Of a stretch of 64,000 nt of DNA, positions 52,238 to 64,000 are shown one piece after another. The DNA comes from Ruegeria halocynthiae. GTDB taxonomy: Bacteria; Pseudomonadota; Alphaproteobacteria; Rhodobacterales; Rhodobacteraceae. Both the position numbers and the translations under genes were made by a program. The stretch spans positions 244,243-308,242 of the forward strand of contig NZ_JQEZ01000005.1 of the NCBI RefSeq assembly GCF_000743705.1. Reading direction: 5' to 3'. Numbering within the stretch: position 1 is the stretch's first letter; every line of letters begins with the position of its first letter. A model generated the notes under the pieces. That model searched no databases, had not been told where the DNA came from, and saw only the letters and a program-made list of their open reading frames with translations.

Positions 52238-53413
52238 CTATACGATGGAGTCGCTAACAACTTTGCCAATTGCATTGGCCGCAGCCAGTGCTGGGTCGTT
52301 GTCAACATGCGCGTAGCGAGCGGTCGTTTGAGTTTGCGTATGGCCTAGCAAACGCCCAATAACAGGAAGGGCGACGCCTTGCCCGACTGCGATGCTGGCG
52401 GCTGTGTGGCGCAGATCGTGTATTCTGATGTCCGTCAGTTCAGCCGCTTCGCAGATCACTCTCCAAGGTTTTGACAAGTTAACCAGCGGTGAGTCTGGCT
52501 TCTTGCCGGGAAATACGTAGCTCGATTCTGGGTCGCGCGTAGTCACCTTCTGCGATTCTAGAACCTGAATAGCGTCGTCCCCTAAGAACAGTGGTTTCGC
52601 CCCAGTTTTACTATCGGGCAGCGAGATGAGTTTTAGGTCCCAATTAATCCAATCCCATTCGCAGGTAGCGACTTCGTTTCTGCGTGCGCCTGTTAGCAAC
52701 AGGAGCCTGATTAGGTTGGCTACATCCGGCCAAATTGTGCCGTCGTCTACCAGATCGCGCAGCGCCTTCCCGAGCCGTTCGAGTTCAGGACCGGACAAGA
52801 ACCGTTCCCGTGGCTGTTCTCCAAATTTCTTTACAAAGCGGCATGGATTGGTTCCTTGCTCTCGCCACTCCCATGCTTCGCATCTGTTCATCAACGATGA
52901 CAGCAAGGCTAGCATTCGATTTGCCAAATATGGTGTGTTACTCAGCGACTGATGTAAGCGGCTAACGTCTGATCGCGAAACATCTACAGCTTTGGTGCTG
53001 CCCAACCTAGGGCCAATGTGCCGCTCCCAACACGAGGTATAATCTCGAATGGTCGCGGGCTTCTTGTTGGCCAGTTCCTCACGCTGGAATTTCTCCCACG
53101 CGTCAACAAGTTTTGGAGCACCTCGTATGGCTTGCCTTTCACCTTGCGGGTCAGCACCTCGTTTCACGGCCGCTAATATCTGTCGGGCATGTTCCTTTGC
53201 TTGGTCAAACGGGATTTGCCCATGAGTGCCAATCGTCACCGAACGTTGTTTAGCGCTGCGTCCGCCGCCGCCTGAACGATATTTGACAACGTATCGCTTT
53301 GCGCCTGAGGGCAACAGTCTGACACCAAACCCAGATAGCGTGTCATCCCAAAGATAAAGGGGCTTATCTTCGCGGCATGTGGCGTTGTCGATTTGTCGTT
53401 TAGTCAATTTCAT
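52238..53413 (-). CDS. Tyrosine recombinase / integrase
   Basis: 391 residues from ATG 53413; an upstream part to 53521 looks non-coding. N-terminal DUF4102-type arm (MKLTKRQIDNATCREDKPLYLWDDTLSGFGVRL), SAM-like core and the catalytic domain: first Arg in LTGARRNEV, HDLRHTAA (His/Arg), LLGHTQ and the nucleophile Tyr in ARYAHV. It integrates elements at tRNA genes. A tRNA-Lys 3' fragment starts 178 nt from its start codon. Confidence 0.92.
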   Translation of the reverse strand: MKLTKRQIDNATCREDKPLYLWDDTLSGFGVRLLPSGAKRYVVKYRSGGGGRSAKQRSVTIGTHGQIPFDQAKEHARQILAAVKRGADPQGERQAIRGAPKLVDAWEKFQREELANKKPATIRDYTSCWERHIGPRLGSTKAVDVSRSDVSRLHQSLSNTPYLANRMLALLSSLMNRCEAWEWREQGTNPCRFVKKFGEQPRERFLSGPELERLGKALRDLVDDGTIWPDVANLIRLLLLTGARRNEVATCEWDWINWDLKLISLPDSKTGAKPLFLGDDAIQVLESQKVTTRDPESSYVFPGKKPDSPLVNLSKPWRVICEAAELTDIRIHDLRHTAASIAVGQGVALPVIGRLLGHTQTQTTARYAHVDNDPALAAANAIGKVVSDSIV

Positions 53414-54444
53414 TAGCTTTGGTTCCTCAAAACAGCCACAGCAACCACCTAGCAACCACCAGGCATAGCACTTTGTGACAAACAGTATGAGGAGAGTGCG
53501 GGTGAATCTCAATAAAAACAAAGGTATTTCAAATGGTTATGCACCAGTATGGCGCAACATGGAAAACCGTGGAAAAGCCGTTTGAACTAACTTTTAATCA
53601 GTGGGTCGCAGGTTCGAATCCTGCACGGCTCACCACTTTTTTCAATAATAACAAATATTTACACTGAGTCTTGTAGAGCGCGCTTCGGGACGTTCGGCTT
53701 GCCGGAAGCAATACGGAAGCACTGTGACAAAGATTGAAGTGTGCCTATTGGATCACAATGGTATCGCGCGGCGGCAGCTCTTGGACACGGATGTGCAATC
53801 TCCCGGACAAACTCAAGCGGGAATTGAGCAGGTCGGCCACCAAGCAGACCTTCGCTGCTAATGCAGGACTGGGCCTCAGCGACGGCGGCAATGCACTGGA
53901 AGCGGACTTTAAATCAAAGATGCAGTGATTTGGGGCCTTGGACAGCGGCTATGCGGACTTTGCCGACATTCACTTTTCTTGCTTCGCTGACGCAGCATCG
54001 GTTCGCATCTGCAGCACGTCTGTGGTTGCGGCGCGGCGCAAGCCGCCAATCCGGTCGTTCGCAGACGTCGATTTCGCCTAAACCAAGACCGCACTTTCGC
54101 TGCGAGCAGGTTGGGCAAGCGAGACGCGGACAAACCGGACTTGTGCAGCTTCGGATAATGCTTACGCAGAAAGCTTTGGTATGCACGGCAGAGGCCATTC
54201 TGCCTTGCGGCACGCATCATCGAACCGGTCCTTCAAATGGGGTAGCCCATGCGAATTTCAAACGACCCATTCGCTGCGCCAAAACTCAGGAAAGCCACTT
54301 GTATTATCGTCTCCTACCTTGGCACTTCTCACCGAACATTAACAGTCAACGCTGACATCAACCGATTTGCGTGATGATTTTGGTTGCCATCTCAATATCA
54401 CCTGCGCTACCAAAGGTAGAGTTGACTTGTCCAGAAATATTAAT
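53414..54444. other. Region between integrase and TPR gene
   Basis: Carries the tRNA-Lys 3' fragment and, from about 53840 to 54250, decayed G+C-rich sequence like other island gaps (for example CGACGGCGGCAATGCACTGG). Short frames on both strands overlap; none has a ribosome site or domain. No gene called. Confidence 0.5.
53591..53635 (+). other. 3' fragment of tRNA-Lys(UUU), probable attachment site
   Basis: CTTTTAATCAGTGGGTCGC and the following bases run from the first base of the anticodon loop (position 32) through T-arm GCAGG-TTCGAAT-CCTGC and acceptor strand ACGGCTC to ACCA. The 5' half of the tRNA is missing. Integrases that recombine at the anticodon loop leave exactly such a fragment at the far end of the element. 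No intact tRNA-Lys was found in the window. Confidence 0.75.
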
Positions 54445-57109: not shown

Positions 57110-57802
57110 CTAAGCGCCCAACCTGGCGGTGGTATCTTCATGCGCGATCCCATCTGCCATACGCGCGAATGCCGCACGCCAGCCCGGTGCAAGATCCTCG
57201 ATATTGGCGAGTATTTCGGCCTCATGCGGGCTTACGCGCCGGGTCAACCGAGCCTGTGTGACGCGCTTGACGCTCCAGTCTTGGTGACGCCGTTCAACAA
57301 GCGCTATCACGTCTCCGGGCGCTACAGATCCAGGTTCCAATACTCTGTAATACCAACCCGTCCGGCCCGTTTTCTGAAACAGATAAGGCATCTTTTTATT
57401 GCCCGTATGCAGACCAAGTTTCCAACAAGGCTGGCGGCCCTGGCTGATCTGAACCGTGGCAGTGCCAAGTGTCAGGATATCACCGATGCAGAGGTTGTCC
57501 TCGGTCAATCCTCGGGTGGAGATGTTTTCCCCAAAGGCAGCAGGGTTTGTATTCGGTGCCAAATGCCCTTCTGACTGCCATGCGCTGTAGTGATCAAAGG
57601 CATAGTGATGAATGGCCTTTTCGGCGCCACCATGCACCGTCAGGTCTGCCTGTTCGTCCCCGGAAAACCCGTTAAACGAAATATCCTGTGGACCGCTGAC
57701 CCGATCTTTTTGAATGGCTGATGGCGGCTTACCTTCCCACCGATCTTTAGCCGCGCCGAGGAACAGGCCATTTACTCGGGCAGTCAAGTCAGGATGCGCC
57801 AT
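57110..57802 (-). CDS. MOSC-domain protein, YiiM-like
   Basis: 230 residues from ATG 57802, inside the marR end (14-nt overlap; GAGGTG upstream). MOSC domain with FGENISTRGL and the Cys in SQGRQPCWKLG, followed by the 3-alpha domain (GWYYRVLEPG onward) found in YiiM. YiiM-type proteins use molybdenum cofactor to reduce N-hydroxylated bases. Coupled translation with MarR. Confidence 0.82.
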   Translation of the reverse strand: MAHPDLTARVNGLFLGAAKDRWEGKPPSAIQKDRVSGPQDISFNGFSGDEQADLTVHGGAEKAIHHYAFDHYSAWQSEGHLAPNTNPAAFGENISTRGLTEDNLCIGDILTLGTATVQISQGRQPCWKLGLHTGNKKMPYLFQKTGRTGWYYRVLEPGSVAPGDVIALVERRHQDWSVKRVTQARLTRRVSPHEAEILANIEDLAPGWRAAFARMADGIAHEDTTARLGA

Positions 57803-58346
57803 TCGCCACCTCTTTGTGTTCAACGCAGATCTTGTTGTTTTCGCCCACTGACAGCGAAACCGACAGGAGTTTGCAAAAACCATTCACCTCTTGCGGGTCA
57901 TAGTGCTCGCACGTCTTGCACAGGCCAAAGGACTGACCGCCGTTAGCCTTCAGGGCCAGTTGCAAGCCGCGCCTCAAAGCGTTTTCCAGCTCGGCCTGTT
58001 CATCAAGGTTAAGCGACTCGAACGCGACAGCTATGGGGTTTGAAGCCGTCAAAACCTCGCGCCCTGCCTCAGTCGGCGTATACGAGATCGACCGCTTGTC
58101 AGACTTCGAAGTCTCTTCAGCAATGTATCCCTTGCGGGAAAGCACTTTCAGAGTCTGAGACATCGTGCCCCGGGTCGTTCCGAGATACTCAGCCACATGG
58201 GATGGGGCCCGGGAATACCTATTGGCCTGAACCAAATACTCTAAGGCACCCCGTTGCGCAGGGTTCAGATCACCGCCCCAACTGTGAGCGGCATCAAGTC
58301 TGGCGATCCGGTTGATAAGCGCGCGAATGCGGTGACTGGTATCCAT
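57789..58346 (-). CDS. MarR-family regulator with C-terminal Cys/His cluster
   Basis: 185 residues from ATG 58346; a GTG at 58373 would lie in the operator. Winged helix ~40-110 (SHVAEYLGTTRGTMSQTLKVL). The last 45 residues add Cys143, Cys146, Cys158, Cys174 and His177, a possible Zn or Fe-S site. It probably controls itself, the MOSC gene and the divergent secreted protein through the CGAGTCG palindromes. Confidence 0.82.
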   Translation of the reverse strand: MDTSHRIRALINRIARLDAAHSWGGDLNPAQRGALEYLVQANRYSRAPSHVAEYLGTTRGTMSQTLKVLSRKGYIAEETSKSDKRSISYTPTEAGREVLTASNPIAVAFESLNLDEQAELENALRRGLQLALKANGGQSFGLCKTCEHYDPQEVNGFCKLLSVSLSVGENNKICVEHKEVANGAS

Positions 58347-58355
58347 CCATAACTC

Positions 58356-58370
58356 ATAGCGAGTCGATAT
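58356..58370. promoter_or_regulatory. MarR operator, site 1
   Basis: ATAGCGAGTCGATAT, an imperfect palindrome centred on CGAGTCG, just upstream of the marR ATG. A second site with the same core lies ~40 bp away. Confidence 0.55.
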
Positions 58371-58393
58371 CACCCTTGCAATCAGTTTCGGAA

Positions 58394-58413
58394 AATAGTA
58401 TCGAGTCGCTATT
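58394..58413. promoter_or_regulatory. MarR operator, site 2
   Basis: AATAGTATCGAGTCGCTATT, an imperfect palindrome (AATAG..CGA-TCG..CTATT) 23 bp before the start of the secreted-protein gene. Confidence 0.55.
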
Positions 58414-58435
58414 AATGAAATTCAGGAGAAATCAC

Positions 58436-59188
58436 ATGAAACTGTCCCTGCCCAAAATCACGGCCGCGGTCGTACTGATTGCAAACGGAGCCCTTGCTGA
58501 TGGTGACCACGCGGTAGACATGCACGATGCTGTCACCTCACCCGCCGATGAAACCAAGGTGGCTGACTTTGACATATTGGCCGCCCACGCCCACCGGAAC
58601 GGCAATGTTGTAACCTTCCACATGACAACAAACGGCGTAGCCGGAGCTTCTACGCCTGCCTCGACCGGATCTGTTGGCGGCTCAGACGTGTGGTCCTACG
58701 TCTGGCCAACCTCACTCGATCCGTCTGCGGTCGGTTTTGAAGGCGGAACGGGCATTCTGGCCATGGCTGCGACGAGCCACCCGGACTTCGATGATACGCC
58801 ACTTTACGACGAAAACGGGGATGGCGATCCCGCGAATGACGGTATTGAGTGGCACAGTCACTGGGTTGTCCTTACACCAACCGAGGAATGTGGGCCCGGC
58901 GCGCTTGCGGTTCGCGACATACCCGAGGGCACTAACCCAAAACTACCCGCAACCTGGCCAGGGTTTCCGATCTTTCTCGACAGCCCAGGCTTCACACCGC
59001 TGTTCGACGGCCCGGAAATAAAGGTGAACGCGGGTTTCGCCAACGATGTCGAGCTTGCTGATGTTGCCTATGACGGTGTTACGTCCGCTCTGCGCGTCAA
59101 CGTCAATGTCCACGCACCGCTGCTCTGCGTAACCGATGTGTTTGACATCGCATCTGGGAATCTGAGCCTGCCCGGCAAGGTGAAATAG
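58436..59188 (+). CDS. Secreted protein of unknown function
   Basis: 250 residues from ATG 58436 (AGGAG upstream). Signal peptide to about residue 21. The mature part is acidic and beta-rich with DGIEWHSHWVVL, a His/Trp/Asp cluster that might bind metal, and two cysteines (EECGPGA, LLCVTD) that may pair. No family recognised. Divergent from MarR. Confidence 0.7.
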   Translation: MKLSLPKITAAVVLIANGALADGDHAVDMHDAVTSPADETKVADFDILAAHAHRNGNVVTFHMTTNGVAGASTPASTGSVGGSDVWSYVWPTSLDPSAVGFEGGTGILAMAATSHPDFDDTPLYDENGDGDPANDGIEWHSHWVVLTPTEECGPGALAVRDIPEGTNPKLPATWPGFPIFLDSPGFTPLFDGPEIKVNAGFANDVELADVAYDGVTSALRVNVNVHAPLLCVTDVFDIASGNLSLPGKVK

Positions 59189-59295: not shown

Positions 59296-59625
59296 TCAGC
59301 ACTCAAAGTTCGGCAGGCCGCAATGTTCCCGAATGTCGGGGTGATTACTGCAACAATCATTTAGAATGAATGAGAGAAGCCCACCCAGCCCAAGAAAGCT
59401 CACCCGATAGATGATCTTCCGGGATTGGCGTTCCGAGGTTATCAGGCCAGCGCGCTCCAACGCCGATAGATGAAAAGATGCTTTCGAAGATATTGCATCC
59501 ATCGCCTCTGCAATCTCGCCAGCCGAAGCGCCATCGTCGCCGCGCCCGATCAGAAATCGAATGATGCGCAATCGCATTTCCTGAGACAGGGCACCAAGCA
59601 TGGCAATCGCGTCTTTCTCATCCAT
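59296..59625 (-). CDS. ArsR-family regulator with paired cysteines
   Basis: 109 residues. Winged helix with SSKASFHLSALERAGLI. The end carries Cys91, Cys92, Cys102 and Cys109 (DCCSNHP, EHCGLP). ArsR sensors often bind metalloid, metal or sulfur species through such cysteines. AGAGAGG precedes the ATG. Divergent from the GST gene, with inverted repeats in between. Confidence 0.85.
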   Translation of the reverse strand: MDEKDAIAMLGALSQEMRLRIIRFLIGRGDDGASAGEIAEAMDAISSKASFHLSALERAGLITSERQSRKIIYRVSFLGLGGLLSFILNDCCSNHPDIREHCGLPNFEC

Positions 59626-59626
59626 A

Positions 59627-59652
59627 TTTCAACCTCTCTTGAAATGTTGAAT
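59627..59652. promoter_or_regulatory. Putative ArsR operator
   Basis: TTTCAA-CCTCTC-TTGAAA inverted repeat and overlapping TTCAAC..GTTGAA pair across the arsR ribosome site. Immediately followed by TTGAATAGTTA, nearly the same as TTGAATAGCTA before soxC. Confidence 0.5.
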
Positions 59653-59725
59653 AGTTATCCATATAACACCTTCGACTCATCACAAACAACCCGACAGCCC
59701 TCTGCCTCACCAAATTGGACATGCC

Positions 59726-60427
59726 ATGAAAATTGTCAGCCTCACCATATGCCCATTCGTCCAGCGCGTCGCCGCATTGCTCGAAGCAAAGAACCTGTCC
59801 TACGAGATCGAGTTCATCAGCTTGCAAGACAAGCCCCAATGGTTTCTCGACATCTCGCCCAATGGTCAGGTGCCAGTCCTCATTACTGATGGTGGGCAGG
59901 CGCTTTTTGAAAGCGATGCTATCGTTGAGTATCTCGAAGAGGCATATCCACCTCTGCAAGCCGACTTGTCGCCGGAAGAAAAGGCAACGAACCGTGCCTG
60001 GAGCTATCTGGCGACCAAGAACTATCTGGTTCAATGCAGTGCTCAGCGCAGCGCGGATGCAGCTACCCTCTCTGAGCGCGCGGCGAAGCTGGACACCGCT
60101 TTTGACCGGATCGAAGCTAAGCTAAGCGATACTCCTTACTTTGCTGGAGACGAGATCGGCATGGTGGATATTGCATGGTTGGTCCTGCTGCATCGTGCTG
60201 ACATCATCGAGAAAAACACCGGCTACGATTTCGTTGGTGATCGACCAAAGCTGAAATCATGGCAGAAGCACCTGATGCAGACGGTCTTGGCAGAAAAGTC
60301 AGTGTCACCGGAGTTTGAGGGCGCATTTTCTGAATTTTACCTGTCGGGCCAGACTTTTCTTGGCCAATGCAAAGAAGATGGCGGGTGCCAGCAGCGTGTG
60401 CCTGAACTGGCGGACGGGTGCTGCTGA
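59726..60427 (+). CDS. Glutathione S-transferase family protein
   Basis: 233 residues. N-terminal thioredoxin-fold with Cys9-Pro-Phe (CPF, the site used by omega/dehalogenase-like GSTs), cis-Pro in NGQVPVL and ESDAIVEYL for glutathione binding. The helical C-terminal domain ends in a Cys-rich tail: Cys215, Cys221, Cys232, Cys233. The tail is unusual. Probably conjugates or deconjugates thiols. Confidence 0.82.
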   Translation: MKIVSLTICPFVQRVAALLEAKNLSYEIEFISLQDKPQWFLDISPNGQVPVLITDGGQALFESDAIVEYLEEAYPPLQADLSPEEKATNRAWSYLATKNYLVQCSAQRSADAATLSERAAKLDTAFDRIEAKLSDTPYFAGDEIGMVDIAWLVLLHRADIIEKNTGYDFVGDRPKLKSWQKHLMQTVLAEKSVSPEFEGAFSEFYLSGQTFLGQCKEDGGCQQRVPELADGCC

Positions 60428-60490
60428 CAGATGCACCAGTCATCCACCCTGAATTCTGATCCCGACACCTCTCTCCAAAGGAATCCTCTC

Positions 60491-61735
60491 GTGAGCCCGT
60501 TTGACACAGCCCCTGCAAAAACCGGTGACACCTTTGTCCGGCATGATCCCAATTTCCTGAATATGGTATTTGGCACCGATCAGGTAACGCCCTTGTGGGT
60601 TGCCGACATGGATTTTGCCGTCGCAAATCCAATCCAGGAAGAGCTTCTGCGTTTGGCAAACCGCGGTCAGTTTTCCTATGAGTTCAACTCAAAAGGCGTT
60701 TTTGCGGCGATCTCGAACTGGTTCAAACGCCGTCACAACCTTTCGCTGGACCCCGACAAGTTTGAACAAGTTCCCGGAGTGCTCACCGCCATTGCGATGC
60801 TGATCCGCGAGTTGACCGAGCTCGGTGACAGTGTGTTGATGCAGGTCCCGGCCTATCATCAGTTTGGCAAGGTCATCAGCACCGCCGGCCGGAACATCAT
60901 CAAAAGCCCGCTTCGGAACATCGATGGCTCATACGAGATGGATTACACCGATCTCGAAGAGAAGCTGAGCGCACCAGATGTCAAAGCCATGATCCTGTGC
61001 AACCCGCACAACCCGGTCGGTCGCGTGTGGCGCAGAGACGAGCTGGAACAGTTGGTGAGTGTCGCCAACCGCCACAGCGTGACAATCATCAGCGATGAGA
61101 TCCATTCCGACATCATCTATGCGGGTCATCGCTTCACCAGCATGATGGCCGTGGATCACGAAAACCACGTATCGGTGATCGGCTCGCCGGCAAAGACCTT
61201 TGGTATGCACAGCATCTCAAACGGTTATGTCTACACCGGGAACGAGGTGCTTCTGGAGCGTTTCAAGAAGACGGCAGACTCCATGTACCTCACGCATGGG
61301 AACGCTTTCACGACTTTTGCGACCATTGCAGCTTACGAAAATGGCGAGGCCTGGGTGGATGAATTGCTCACCTATCTGGAAGGCACGTTGGCGTGGATTG
61401 ATCAATTTCTGAAAGAGGACTTGCCTGCCATCAGGATGTCTCCGGTCGAGGGCACCTATCAGATTTGGCTCGATTGTTCCGCGACCGGGCTGGCAGGCGA
61501 TGATCTGAAGGCCACGCTCGGCGACTCCGGCTTTGGTGCCACGCCAGGCACCTGGTTTGATCAGGACGCCACTCAGTTCATTCGCGTTAATATAGCAGCG
61601 CCCAGAGCAGATATCGAAAAGGCGTTCAGACAGTTCAAAACGGTGTTGGATCGGATTGCGGAAGACCGCGCCAAAGGACATGTTCCGGCGGACCAGAAAG
61701 CATGTTCCGGCGCTTCAACAAATTCCTGCTGCTGA
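60491..61735 (+). CDS. MalY/PatB-type PLP C-S lyase (aminotransferase fold)
   Basis: 414 residues from GTG 60491 (AAAGGA nine bases upstream; ATG 60431 is the alternative). PLP fold-type I: NPHNPVGR, SDEIHSDI and the PLP lysine in GSPAKTFG (Lys235). MalY/PatB enzymes cleave cystathionine or cysteine S-conjugates to thiol, pyruvate and ammonia. It ends in ACSGASTNSCC, a Cys pair like that of the GST. Confidence 0.85.
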   Translation: MSPFDTAPAKTGDTFVRHDPNFLNMVFGTDQVTPLWVADMDFAVANPIQEELLRLANRGQFSYEFNSKGVFAAISNWFKRRHNLSLDPDKFEQVPGVLTAIAMLIRELTELGDSVLMQVPAYHQFGKVISTAGRNIIKSPLRNIDGSYEMDYTDLEEKLSAPDVKAMILCNPHNPVGRVWRRDELEQLVSVANRHSVTIISDEIHSDIIYAGHRFTSMMAVDHENHVSVIGSPAKTFGMHSISNGYVYTGNEVLLERFKKTADSMYLTHGNAFTTFATIAAYENGEAWVDELLTYLEGTLAWIDQFLKEDLPAIRMSPVEGTYQIWLDCSATGLAGDDLKATLGDSGFGATPGTWFDQDATQFIRVNIAAPRADIEKAFRQFKTVLDRIAEDRAKGHVPADQKACSGASTNSCC

Positions 61736-61811
61736 TCGAAGCCACATGAGCCGGCTTGCGGTCTGCACATCAAGTGATGTGCGCGGGTCCCGATCAGCCT
61801 CATTCCAACAA

Positions 61812-61822
61812 TTGAATAGCTA
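61812..61822. promoter_or_regulatory. Possible second ArsR site
   Basis: TTGAATAGCTA, sharing 10 of 11 bases with the site before the GST gene (59647-59657), located 22 bp before the soxC start. Confidence 0.35.
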
Positions 61823-61843
61823 CCAATTCAGGAGGTTACTCAG

Positions 61844-63100
61844 ATGACAAAGACAACCGGTTTCGTGGGGAGGCGTGACTTTCTGAGGGCGGGTGCCACG
61901 TTTCTGACCGCAAGTTCCGCGGCCCTTCCGGCAGCGCTTGCTGCGACACGCGCGTCCGCTGCGCCGGAATTCCCAGATAACATGCTCTATCCTGGTGTGG
62001 AGGACGAGGCCTACGGCAGACCGTCTCCTCATGAGGCTGAGGTTGCGCGAAAGATTTTTCCGCAAAATGAAAAATCGACGCTGACCGCATCTTTCACACC
62101 TCTGCACAATCAAAAAGGCATCATCACACCTTCAGGGCTTCACTTTGGTGCCCATCACTCGGGCGTTCCCGACATCGATCCGGAAACACATGAGTTGTTC
62201 ATTCATGGAATGACTGACCGCCCCTTGAAGTTCACAACGCGTGATCTCATGCGATACCCATTGTCAGGTGGCATAAATTTTCTGGAGTGCGGGGGAAATA
62301 GCGCGCCACAGGGCTATTATCCTGAGGCGCAACCGATGCCCCTGCAATACCTTCACGGGTTGGTGTCCGGGTCCGAATGGATTGGTGTCCCGGTCAAACT
62401 GCTTTTGCAAGAAGCAGGTCTAAATCCCAAGGCCAAGTGGGTGATTGCCGAAGGTGCGGACGCGGGTTCACTTGCACGTAGCATTCCTCTGCAAAAGCTG
62501 ATGGATGATGCGATCATCGCGCTTTACCAAAACGGTGAACGATTGCGACCCGCGCAAGGGTATCCCATGCGTCTGTTCCTTCCCGGGTGGGAAGGCAATA
62601 CCAGCATCAAGTGGCTCAGACGTCTCGAAGTCACCGACCGCCCGGCCTACACCCGCGAAGAAAGCCGCCACTATTCTGAAACCCTTGCCGATGGCTCAAT
62701 TGAAGGCTTCAGCATGTATATGGGCGTCAAGTCGGTGATCACCCATCCCTCGGCAGGGCAGGTCCTGCCTGAGAAAGGGTATTACCAGGTTAACGGATTG
62801 GCGTGGTCCGGGTTCGGGAAAATTTCCAGGATCGAAGTGTCTGATGATGGCGGCAAGAACTGGATACCTGCTGACATCGAGGGGCCCGTGCTGAGCAAAT
62901 CCTTGACACGTTTCACTCTGCCCTGGCGTTGGGATGGAAATCCAGTGCGCCTGCAAAGTCGTGCATTCGACGAATGGGATAACGTCCAGCCGACCCATGA
63001 AACTTGGAAAAGCAGGTACTTTGAGGGAAGTCGCAACCACTACAACGCAATCCAGACCTGGTTCATCGACGCACAGGGAGCCATCTCAAATGTCTTCTAA
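61844..63100 (+). CDS. soxC: SoxC-like molybdenum sulfite/sulfane dehydrogenase
   Basis: 418 residues with a Tat signal (GRRDFLRAG), GGAGG before the ATG. Mo-binding domain with the ligand Cys149 in LECGGNS, GIITPSGLHFGAHHSGVPDIDP and the dimerisation domain at the end (IEVSDDGGKNW, TLPWRWDG). It matches the SoxC/sulfite oxidase group that oxidises sulfite or protein-bound sulfane in the periplasm. No soxXYZAB is near. Confidence 0.85.
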   Translation: MTKTTGFVGRRDFLRAGATFLTASSAALPAALAATRASAAPEFPDNMLYPGVEDEAYGRPSPHEAEVARKIFPQNEKSTLTASFTPLHNQKGIITPSGLHFGAHHSGVPDIDPETHELFIHGMTDRPLKFTTRDLMRYPLSGGINFLECGGNSAPQGYYPEAQPMPLQYLHGLVSGSEWIGVPVKLLLQEAGLNPKAKWVIAEGADAGSLARSIPLQKLMDDAIIALYQNGERLRPAQGYPMRLFLPGWEGNTSIKWLRRLEVTDRPAYTREESRHYSETLADGSIEGFSMYMGVKSVITHPSAGQVLPEKGYYQVNGLAWSGFGKISRIEVSDDGGKNWIPADIEGPVLSKSLTRFTLPWRWDGNPVRLQSRAFDEWDNVQPTHETWKSRYFEGSRNHYNAIQTWFIDAQGAISNVF

Positions 63101-63635
63101 AAAACAAATGCTACACTTGATCGCTCTTGGACTTCTCGCGGCAAGTGGGGCCACCGCTGAAGATACACCCGCACTTGGTCAAACCATCCCGACAGAAGAG
63201 CTGGCAGGTCTCAGCACAACGGTTTACCCGGACGGCGAAGGGCTGCCGCCGGGCGGCGGTACTGTGCGGCAGGGCAAGGTCGTGTACGAGGACCAATGCT
63301 CAGTTTGCCATGGTGAAAACGGGGAAGGTGATATGAGCATGTATATCCCAATCCTTGCCGGCAATGGCAAACCCGATCACGGCTTTCACTGGTCAACGGG
63401 CTATTCCTGGCCCTATGCAACGAGCATCTTTGAATATGTCCGCACTGCAATGCCACCCTTCAATCCCAAAGAGCTGAGCACGGCAGAAATCTATGCGGTC
63501 ACTGCGTATATTCTCCACATGAATGGTTTCCTGCCAGAAGACGGAGAAGTGAGCCAAAGCACGCTTCCGAAGGTCAAGATGCCCGCGCAGGATTACTTCA
63601 GCAGCAAATGGGAGAAAGAGGAAAGCCAGCACTGA
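63090..63635 (+). CDS. Monoheme cytochrome c, SoxD-like partner
   Basis: 181 residues from ATG 63090 (overlap of 11 nt with soxC). Signal peptide ends TAEDT. One heme motif CSVCHG (Cys70, Cys73, His74), with the axial Met probably in RTAMPPF. SoxD of Paracoccus has two hemes; only one is seen here. Likely takes electrons from the SoxC-like enzyme. Confidence 0.82.
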   Translation: MSSKKQMLHLIALGLLAASGATAEDTPALGQTIPTEELAGLSTTVYPDGEGLPPGGGTVRQGKVVYEDQCSVCHGENGEGDMSMYIPILAGNGKPDHGFHWSTGYSWPYATSIFEYVRTAMPPFNPKELSTAEIYAVTAYILHMNGFLPEDGEVSQSTLPKVKMPAQDYFSSKWEKEESQH

Positions 63636-63711
63636 TCCTGGTTTCAAAACAGGACGGATCGCCGTCGTCTCGGACACTTCTACATACTCAAACAACTGGG
63701 GAGGCACCTTC

Positions 63712-64000
63712 GTGCTTGAAGGAAAAACAGCTCTTGTAACGGGCGGATCCAGCGGCATTGGCTTGGCATCAGCCAAAATGTTGAAGGACAATGGCGCCCG
63801 CGTTGCAATCACCGGAACAAATGCGGACAAACTCAAGTTGGCGCATGAAAAACTCGGCGATGACAGCATCGCAATCCAGGCAGATGTCAGCAATCTGGAT
63901 GATCTAGACCGAACGCGATCTGAGTTGCAGCAGGCCTTCGGCAAGCTGGATATTCTTTTTGCCAACGCAGGTGTCGCCTTCAATACGCCACTCGGGAAGA
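63712..64000 (+). CDS. SDR-family oxidoreductase (3' end outside window)
   Basis: Starts at GTG 63712 (GGGAGG eight bases upstream) and runs off the edge after 96 codons. VTGGSSGIG at 9-17 and LFANAGV are the NAD-binding motifs of a classical SDR. Substrate unknown. It follows the cytochrome in the same direction. Confidence 0.8.
   Translation, partial: MLEGKTALVTGGSSGIGLASAKMLKDNGARVAITGTNADKLKLAHEKLGDDSIAIQADVSNLDDLDRTRSELQQAFGKLDILFANAGVAFNTPLGK

Follow-up and report, generated by a model that had tools for sequence, protein, structure and literature searches.

The question raised by this locus is what joins an ArsR-type regulator, a glutathione transferase (GST), a pyridoxal phosphate (PLP) lyase, a SoxC-like enzyme, a cytochrome c and a short-chain dehydrogenase (SDR), all encoded at the end of a 64,000-nucleotide stretch of the Ruegeria halocynthiae genome (hereafter the window; contig NZ_JQEZ01000005.1, positions 244,243 to 308,242). 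The original prediction was an organosulfur pathway in which a thiol conjugate is made or processed by the GST, cut by the lyase, and its sulfur oxidized in the periplasm by the SoxC-like enzyme with the cytochrome; a search for a conserved cluster was proposed as a check. All six genes are present where they had been placed, and a further gene follows beyond the window.

59296..59625, minus strand: ArsR/SmtB-family regulator (HTH_metalloreg 57.8 bits, cut-off 55)
59626..59645, no strand assigned: perfect 7-base palindrome ATTTCAA-N6-TTGAAAT, immediately before the arsR start
59639..59667, plus strand: putative promoter TTGAAA-N17-TATAAC, read by eye, overlapping the palindrome
59726..60427, plus strand: omega-like Cys glutathione transferase (Pfam GST_N/GST_C; catalytic-type Cys9; tail ...DGCC)
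60431..61735, plus strand: PatB/MalY-type PLP C-S lyase-like enzyme (TIGR04350 325.7 bits, cut-off 340; Lys255; tail ...NSCC)
61844..63100, plus strand: SoxC-like molybdenum oxidoreductase (TIGR04555 511.9 bits, cut-off 420; RRDFLRAG leader; Cys149 as Mo ligand; pocket Arg replaced by Ala103)
63090..63635, plus strand: SoxD-like cytochrome c (one CxxCH, CSVCH; Pfam Cytochrome_CBB3; 2xts_B 88 bits)
63712..64000 in the window, plus strand: SDR-family oxidoreductase (GTG start; cut by the window end)
about 64516-64872 in window numbering, beyond the window: DUF3088 gene (CRQC motif), separated from the SDR gene by 60 bases

Three bases separate the GST stop from the lyase start, and the end of soxC overlaps the cytochrome c gene by 11 bases. 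The SDR gene is whole in the contig, where it encodes 247 amino acids and reaches position 64455 (window numbering). The Pfam DUF3088 match of the gene after it was obtained on the homologue in locus L037.

The set is conserved, in support of the original prediction. The lyase, SDR, cytochrome and DUF3088 genes are each found in seven of the eight loci that share the SoxC clade (the window and L035-L041; DUF3088 is a fragment in L035) and the GST in six, with differing gene arrangements; these loci are not independent, the SoxCs of L035 and L036 being 93-94% identical to that of the window and L037 and L038 being mutually close. The exception is L040, in which soxC is truncated. A unit of lyase and GST occurs without SoxC in four sister loci, and SoxCD is therefore an optional module. 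No relative of SoxC, the lyase or the GST was found at 60% identity or above in plasmid searches.

The SoxC-like enzyme and the cytochrome find their nearest solved chains in the two halves of one structure (2xts_A, 325 bits, and 2xts_B). The predicted pairing of a periplasm-type enzyme with a cytochrome is supported by the twin-arginine-type leader (RRDFLRAG) and the overlapping cytochrome gene. SoxD of Paracoccus pantotrophus is said to be di-heme. The separation from soxXYZAB proved stronger than had been stated: the window's genome (99.96% complete) has no PF13501 match for SoxY and no second SoxC above cut-off. The SorA and SorT sulfite dehydrogenase models gave 114.4 bits each, against cut-offs of 600 and 570. 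The pocket Arg, an active-site residue of SoxC and sulfite oxidases that lines the anion pocket, is absent from all eight SoxCs of the clade, which have Ala or Val there (Ala103 in the window), and is retained in 32 of 42 compared SoxC rows (31 of 41 distinct rows, L034 and L035b1 being identical); L042 and L043 (52% identical) likewise lack it. In a tree that omitted the truncated L040 and the duplicate L034, the window's SoxC group forms its own clade with 100/100 support. A structure model of the SoxC-like protein was of no use (pLDDT 41.6 from eight sequences). Because SoxY is absent and the pocket Arg lost, an ordinary Sox role is unlikely, and for the same reasons the annotation of the gene as a sulfite dehydrogenase is probably misleading.

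The GST motif CPFVQR, present in 34 of 34 GST open reading frames (ORFs), is that of the Cys (omega-like) type, and the nearest solved relatives are human GSTO1 and Leishmania TDR1. Glutathione transferases of this type mostly reduce or deglutathionylate, and the motif and kinship speak against the GST as a maker of conjugates. GSTO1 is described as a methylarsonate reductase in PMC12608789. The PLP enzyme is PatB-like, as predicted, with its PLP-binding Lys255 in SPAKTF aligned with the KTF of 4dgt and 6qp3, but falls narrowly short of the PatB-family cut-off (325.7 against 340 bits).

Two adjacent Cys residues stand among the six C-terminal residues of 32 of 34 GST ORFs, 10 of 12 lyase ORFs and 2 of 822 other ORFs; the counts hold two duplicate loci (L057 repeats L035, and L085 is L037), without which they become 30 of 32 and 8 of 10, and the lyase genes in L064 and in L087 fall outside them, being hidden by longer ORFs on the opposite strand. 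The same GST clade has a second context, in which the gene for a SigZ sigma factor (TIGR02959 178.6, cut-off 168.65) adjoins it in 24 of 27 loci.

The only Cys residues of the ArsR are 91, 92, 102 and 109. The vicinal pair aligns with the CC of 6j05, the best solved match, and Cys102 and Cys109 fall outside the aligned part. In an anti-phage library this protein had only weak winged-helix matches. The palindrome before arsR occurs at one place in the window and is identical in five of five aligned ArsR-GST intergenic regions; on this pattern it is the probable operator of ArsR. The overlapping putative promoter was not listed by a consensus scan, whose last base was stricter. Another motif, TTGAATAG, found in the window before both the GST gene and soxC, was ruled out as a shared operator, as it is not kept before soxC in relatives.

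The original prediction did not consider a metalloid; we do so because of the regulator type, the Cys-Cys tails and an ArsP_1 permease encoded, together with ArsR2, in five of the eight loci of the SoxC clade (in L039 and L041 these genes immediately precede soxC). L039 also encodes a Cys-rich flavoprotein and an ArsK-like MFS protein (168.6 bits, cut-off 400). An ArsO-type flavoprotein is found in three of the four sister clusters without SoxC, over cut-off in one (481, cut-off 425) and as 82-83% relatives in two further clusters.

Our favoured reading, put forward tentatively, is an inducible operon that detoxifies a thiophilic toxicant, arsenicals first, with SoxCD recruited as a periplasmic oxidase. 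In its favour stand the ArsR Cys pair and the invariant palindrome, a Cys-type GST akin to GSTO1 and TDR1, the tails, the ArsR2, ArsP_1 and ArsO genes of relatives, the two L039 genes, and the absent SoxY and lost Arg, which set the enzyme apart from an ordinary Sox role. We infer the toxicant, the activities and the order of steps as follows. The toxicant would most likely be a trivalent or pentavalent (organo)arsenical or a thio-arsenical, and ArsR would leave its palindrome once the vicinal Cys pair had bound it. The GST, with glutathione, would reduce the toxicant or take it off a thiol, as with GSTO1 and methylarsonate, and the tails of the GST and the lyase may hold or pass on the thiophilic element, as the paired C-terminal cysteines of MerA do with mercury. 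The lyase would act on a cysteine conjugate or on cystine to release sulfide or a thiol, the SDR and the DUF3088 protein may carry out redox steps, and the permease, where present (five of eight loci), would export the product for periplasmic oxidation by the SoxCD-like pair, with cytochrome c as electron acceptor.

A narrower and rather unlikely version is a thiolation-oxidation route for metalloids built on a relay between the two Cys-Cys-tailed enzymes. Cysteine-derived sulfide or thiol would come from the lyase, the arsenical would be loaded or reduced by the GST, and a SoxCD deprived of its carrier protein and its anion-binding Arg would oxidize, in the periplasm, thio-arsenicals or the sulfur they carry. 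If true, sulfur oxidation and arsenic resistance would be linked biochemically by genes carried on a mobile island in marine Roseobacters.

Several observations weigh against arsenicals. The window's genome has no TIGR00832 match for the arsenite pump Acr3, and the ArsK and SaoE-type matches lie far under their cut-offs. ArsO-type matches number five in 265 family genomes, two of them over cut-off, and no ars genes were recognized within 4.5 kb of the five, where ten neighbours were scanned for families (none of them ars) and the others judged by eye from longest-ORF lists, which may hide small genes in GC-rich DNA; these neighbours weaken ArsO as proof of an arsenic role. Nor were known ars genes recognized in the stretches read around the GST in its second context, where a cysteine desulfhydrase-like gene, Cds1, adjoins the GST in two loci (L097 and L101). 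The closest ArsR-ArsP_1 pair elsewhere in the window's genome adjoins a MocR-type regulator and xsc, a sulfonate setting.

The Cds1 genes beside the GST and the xsc setting also favour metabolism of reactive sulfur or organosulfur compounds, a possibility close to the original prediction and one that we consider nearly as likely. Here the GST would shift or reduce mixed disulfides or persulfides, the lyase (with Cds1 in one relative) would free a thiol or sulfide from cysteine compounds, and the sulfur would be oxidized by the periplasmic SoxCD or, in the sister clusters, by a cytosolic flavin monooxygenase. The equivalog score of SoxC and its SoxD-like partner fit, as does the PatB-like lyase; Cds1, in two pieces, adjoins the L039 cluster, and a rhodanese adjoins ArsR2 and the permease in L040 and L041. 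Heteroatom oxidation could be the common function of SoxCD and the ArsO-type flavoprotein, which belong to alternative clusters. Against it are the missing pocket Arg in all eight clade SoxCs and the missing SoxY, which also leave oxidation of the sulfite or thiosulfate type unsupported (there is no SoxYZ carrier). The ArsR, moreover, scored 22 bits with the model of the sulfite sensor BigR (cut-off 155) and has its Cys residues confined to the C-terminal part, and plain organosulfur catabolism would not predict the Cys-Cys tails.

Detoxification of a carbon electrophile is improbable. The GST would reduce or deglutathionylate a conjugate, the lyase cleave a cysteine conjugate, the SDR reduce a carbonyl and SoxCD dispose of the sulfur; omega-type GSTs do reduce phenacyl conjugates, and the PatB-like lyase and the SDR fit, but the ArsR Cys pair, the tails and the ArsP_1 permease are left unexplained.

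Somewhat less probable still is that the genes are chance neighbours collected on an island. The cluster appears to sit on a mobile island: an integrase (52238-53521) lies beside tRNA-Lys (53564-53635), the only Rfam match, an IS transposase stands at the contig end past the DUF3088 gene, and IS elements flank the L035 cluster on both sides. An adjacent secreted-MarR-MOSC module, at first counted in, was left out of the cluster because it occurs without it in eight more loci (seven genomes and a second copy in G018); a structure model of its secreted protein was of no use (pLDDT 37.5 from five sequences). Yet the set recurs in seven of eight loci in differing orders, with genes three bases apart or overlapping, and the GST and lyase share their tails. 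A sulfur-containing metabolite made by the GST, lyase and oxidase is very improbable: the tropodithietic acid pathway also uses a GST and a C-S lyase, but this GST scored 18.6 bits with the beta-etherase model (cut-off 440), and biosynthetic core genes are absent from the stretches read.

The original prediction is supported in part: it keeps its conserved set, its periplasmic SoxC-like enzyme paired with a cytochrome and its location outside any Sox system, and is left unsupported on GST conjugation and on oxidation of the sulfite or thiosulfate type. Its statement that no described pathway has this set agrees with searches of the open-licence PMC literature, including those on tropodithietic acid and arsenic, which yielded no description of the gene set. 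The Cys-Cys tails, shared by two unrelated operon enzymes and by a GST clade otherwise paired with SigZ, suggest that marine bacteria widely carry a thiol-based defence not yet described, and the locus provides a SoxCD-type enzyme, with an altered pocket, working outside the Sox system.

The closest known systems compare with the cluster as follows. SoxCD sulfane dehydrogenase of P. pantotrophus (2xts) shares the enzyme family, the gene pair and a TIGR04555 score over cut-off, but the cluster's genome lacks SoxY, its pocket has Ala or Val for Arg, its clade is separate, and its neighbours are a GST and a lyase rather than sox genes. The PatB/MalY C-S lyases agree with the cluster lyase in fold type and in the motif region that holds the PLP lysine, whereas the cluster lyase lies under the TIGR04350 cut-off and has its own Cys-Cys tail. 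Operons with ArsR, ArsP and ArsO resemble the cluster in the ArsR Cys pair, the ArsP_1 of relatives and the ArsO of sister clusters; in contrast to classical ars operons, acr3 is absent from the window's genome, and neither a classical pump nor an arsenate reductase was recognized in the loci read. GSTO1 and TDR1 share the Cys of the CPF..R motif, although the cluster GST has a short Cys-Cys tail and sits in a bacterial operon. Finally, the SigZ-GST pairs of Rhodobacterales, Vibrio and others have a SigZ-type ECF sigma factor as partner in place of the lyase and SoxCD, but carry the same GST clade with the same Cys-Cys tail.

All six genes that the original prediction had placed here were confirmed in position by gene calls and family profile scores, and the set extends past the window:

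59296-59625, minus strand: arsR, regulator
following, in order: GST gene; PatB-like PLP lyase gene; soxC-like gene; cytochrome c gene
from 63712: SDR gene
outside the window's reach, 60 bases past the SDR gene: DUF3088 gene

The window lies on contig C5 of a 4.3-Mb genome (G000; completeness 99.96%), and its close relatives in a genome scan with the SoxC protein are Ruegeria. The GST and lyase genes are separated by 3 bases, the soxC and cytochrome genes overlap by 11 bases, and the contig end beyond DUF3088 is an IS transposase. The arsR gene is divergent from GST, and the region between them contains, immediately before the arsR start codon, a perfect palindrome (ATTTCAA-N6-TTGAAAT) that is identical in five of five aligned ArsR-GST intergenic regions. 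It is overlapped by a candidate promoter, TTGAAA-N17-TATAAC, which was read by eye and is not among the consensus-scan results.

Scanning the SoxC protein against 84,980 species genomes recovered seven loci (L035-L041), eight counting the window. Lyase, SDR, cytochrome, and DUF3088 (only a fragment in L035) are present in seven of the eight and GST in six; the exception is L040, in which soxC is truncated. The window and L035-L038 have an ArsR regulator and carry soxC and the cytochrome gene between lyase and SDR; in L039 and L041 the regulator is a PadR-type protein with Cys pairs, and soxC and the cytochrome gene come after an ArsR2-ArsP_1 permease pair (PF03773), a pair located after DUF3088 in L037 and L038. 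Persistence of the same genes together despite rearrangement is stronger evidence for a joint job than a single frozen operon would be. The clade is rare: a clade SoxC at 93% identity or higher occurs in 3/54 genus genomes, the window's own genome alone exceeds 52% among 394 family genomes (393 genera) at the threshold used, and the SDR reaches E 1e-95 or better in two of those 394. The cluster is a real, conserved module, notable for its altered SoxC and its conspicuous Cys-Cys tails, and is probably mobile; no paper describing the gene set was found in open-licence PMC text.

The cluster seems to belong to an island: a tyrosine integrase (52238-53521, minus strand) adjoins tRNA-Lys (53564-53635), and G+C is 48.9% at 53.5-57 kb and, within 59296-64000, 54.0%, versus 56.5% for bases 1-52000. 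Positions 57110-59188 hold a separate module of MOSC, a secreted protein without a Pfam family, and a MarR protein that has Cys residues clustered at its C-terminus; it occurs without the cluster in eight further loci, and at least three of those inspected (L126, L131, L132) add a redoxin-like gene.

The SoxC-like enzyme exceeds the SoxC family cut-off, has the Paracoccus pantotrophus SoxCD structure (2xts) as its closest solved structure, retains the Mo ligand Cys149, and bears a twin-arginine-type leader. What it lacks is the pocket Arg of sulfite oxidases and SoxC, which we take to be the anion-binding residue. This Arg (ERHHSG in canonical SoxC, FTRNH in the aligned sulfite oxidase) is present in 32 of 42 aligned rows; the ten with Ala or Val are the eight clade members plus L042 and L043, both 52% identical to the window's SoxC. 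The clade separates with 100/100 support in a midpoint-drawn tree with several weak deeper forks. SoxY, found in 25/54 genus genomes, had no match in the window's genome; two other carriers of the clade SoxC (G018, G049) have it, but on different contigs. We conclude that its role is not that of SoxCD in a Sox system and that it would probably be a poor sulfite dehydrogenase. Its predicted structure was of too poor quality for reading the pocket.

Other SoxC-like genes were seen in passing. Ruegeria haliotis has a second one (L035:14856-18164), of ERSHGG type and 44% identical; it lies some 4 kb away from the cluster and is accompanied by a cytochrome and by another cytochrome protein. Such a set also occurs in G004, G013, and G044, genomes without SoxY. 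L048 and L049 encode a SoxC with EVHHGG, likewise missing the Arg and 52% identical to the window's, which in L048 adjoins a methyltransferase.

In four sister loci (L064, L086, L087, L088), PadR, GST, and lyase occur together and SoxC is missing from the stretch covered; three of the four also carry, between them, SDR, DUF3088, and a flavoprotein. The single flavoprotein tested, from L064, scores over the ArsO cut-off (481 versus 425 bits). The SoxCD of the one group and the ArsO-type monooxygenase of the sister loci may thus perform comparable oxidations. PMC6514093 reports ars clusters that include ArsO. In a control covering 265 family genomes, five ArsO matches (two over the cut-off) were found and an ars gene was recognised around none, so the name is a poor guide to arsenic in this setting.

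The GST belongs to the Cys type, with CPFVQR in 34/34 ORFs; its closest solved relatives are Leishmania TDR1, an antimonial reductase, and human GSTO1. The latter is a methylarsonate reductase, according to PMC12608789. The GST and the lyase share a C-terminal Cys-Cys. Among 868 longest-first ORFs of at least 150 aa from the loci at hand, Cys-Cys falls within the last six residues in 32/34 GSTs (30/32 after removing duplicates), 10/12 lyases (8/10), and 2/822 others, one of these a Cys-rich flavoprotein of L039.

The wider GST clade occurs in 22/390 order genomes (E 1e-60) and 11/378 phylum genomes (E 1e-55). Of the 27 loci with no lyase nearby, 24 have close to the GST a SigZ-type sigma factor whose tail contains CC and CxxC; its pairs with Cys-Cys-tailed GSTs (L089-L107, L117-L121) span Rhodobacterales, Vibrionaceae, and others, and no description of the pair was found in the literature searched. 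An ArsR2-like gene immediately precedes the SigZ-type gene in L106, L118, and L119, and Cds1 adjoins the GST in L097 and L101.

We favour detoxification of a thiophilic toxicant, and tentatively suggest that thiophilic metalloids may be the class: the GST type, the ArsP_1 permease, the Cys-Cys tails, and an ArsR Cys pair aligned with that of the solved ArsR 6j05 all point there. Reactive sulfur or organosulfur as substrate is nearly as likely; SoxCD, lyase, and Cds1 speak for it, rhodanese occurs in L040 and L041, and a related ArsR-permease pair lies beside xsc (922 bits versus a cut-off of 676) at another place in the same genome. At that locus (L144:7066-11896, contig C4), ArsR and an ArsP_1-type permease adjoin xsc, the gene for sulfoacetaldehyde acetyltransferase, and a gene for a MocR-type regulator, and the permease may be part of sulfonate or sulfite handling; taurine and sulfite genes are treated in PMC4334477 and PMC5320631. 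Classical arsenic resistance is disfavoured by the lack of any Acr3 match in the window's genome. Thio-arsenicals would unite the metalloid and sulfur readings; passages of PMC4220137 report thioarsenates and sox genes co-occurring in one hot spring, not a SoxC-like enzyme acting on thioarsenates.

The substrate is one that we infer. Of the original prediction the observed gene set stands, and its interpretation as a new thiol or organosulfur pathway is half borne out. The Cys pairs common to regulators and enzymes fit the sensing and handling of a thiol-binding agent; in MerA, a C-terminal Cys pair delivers the thiophilic ion to the active site.
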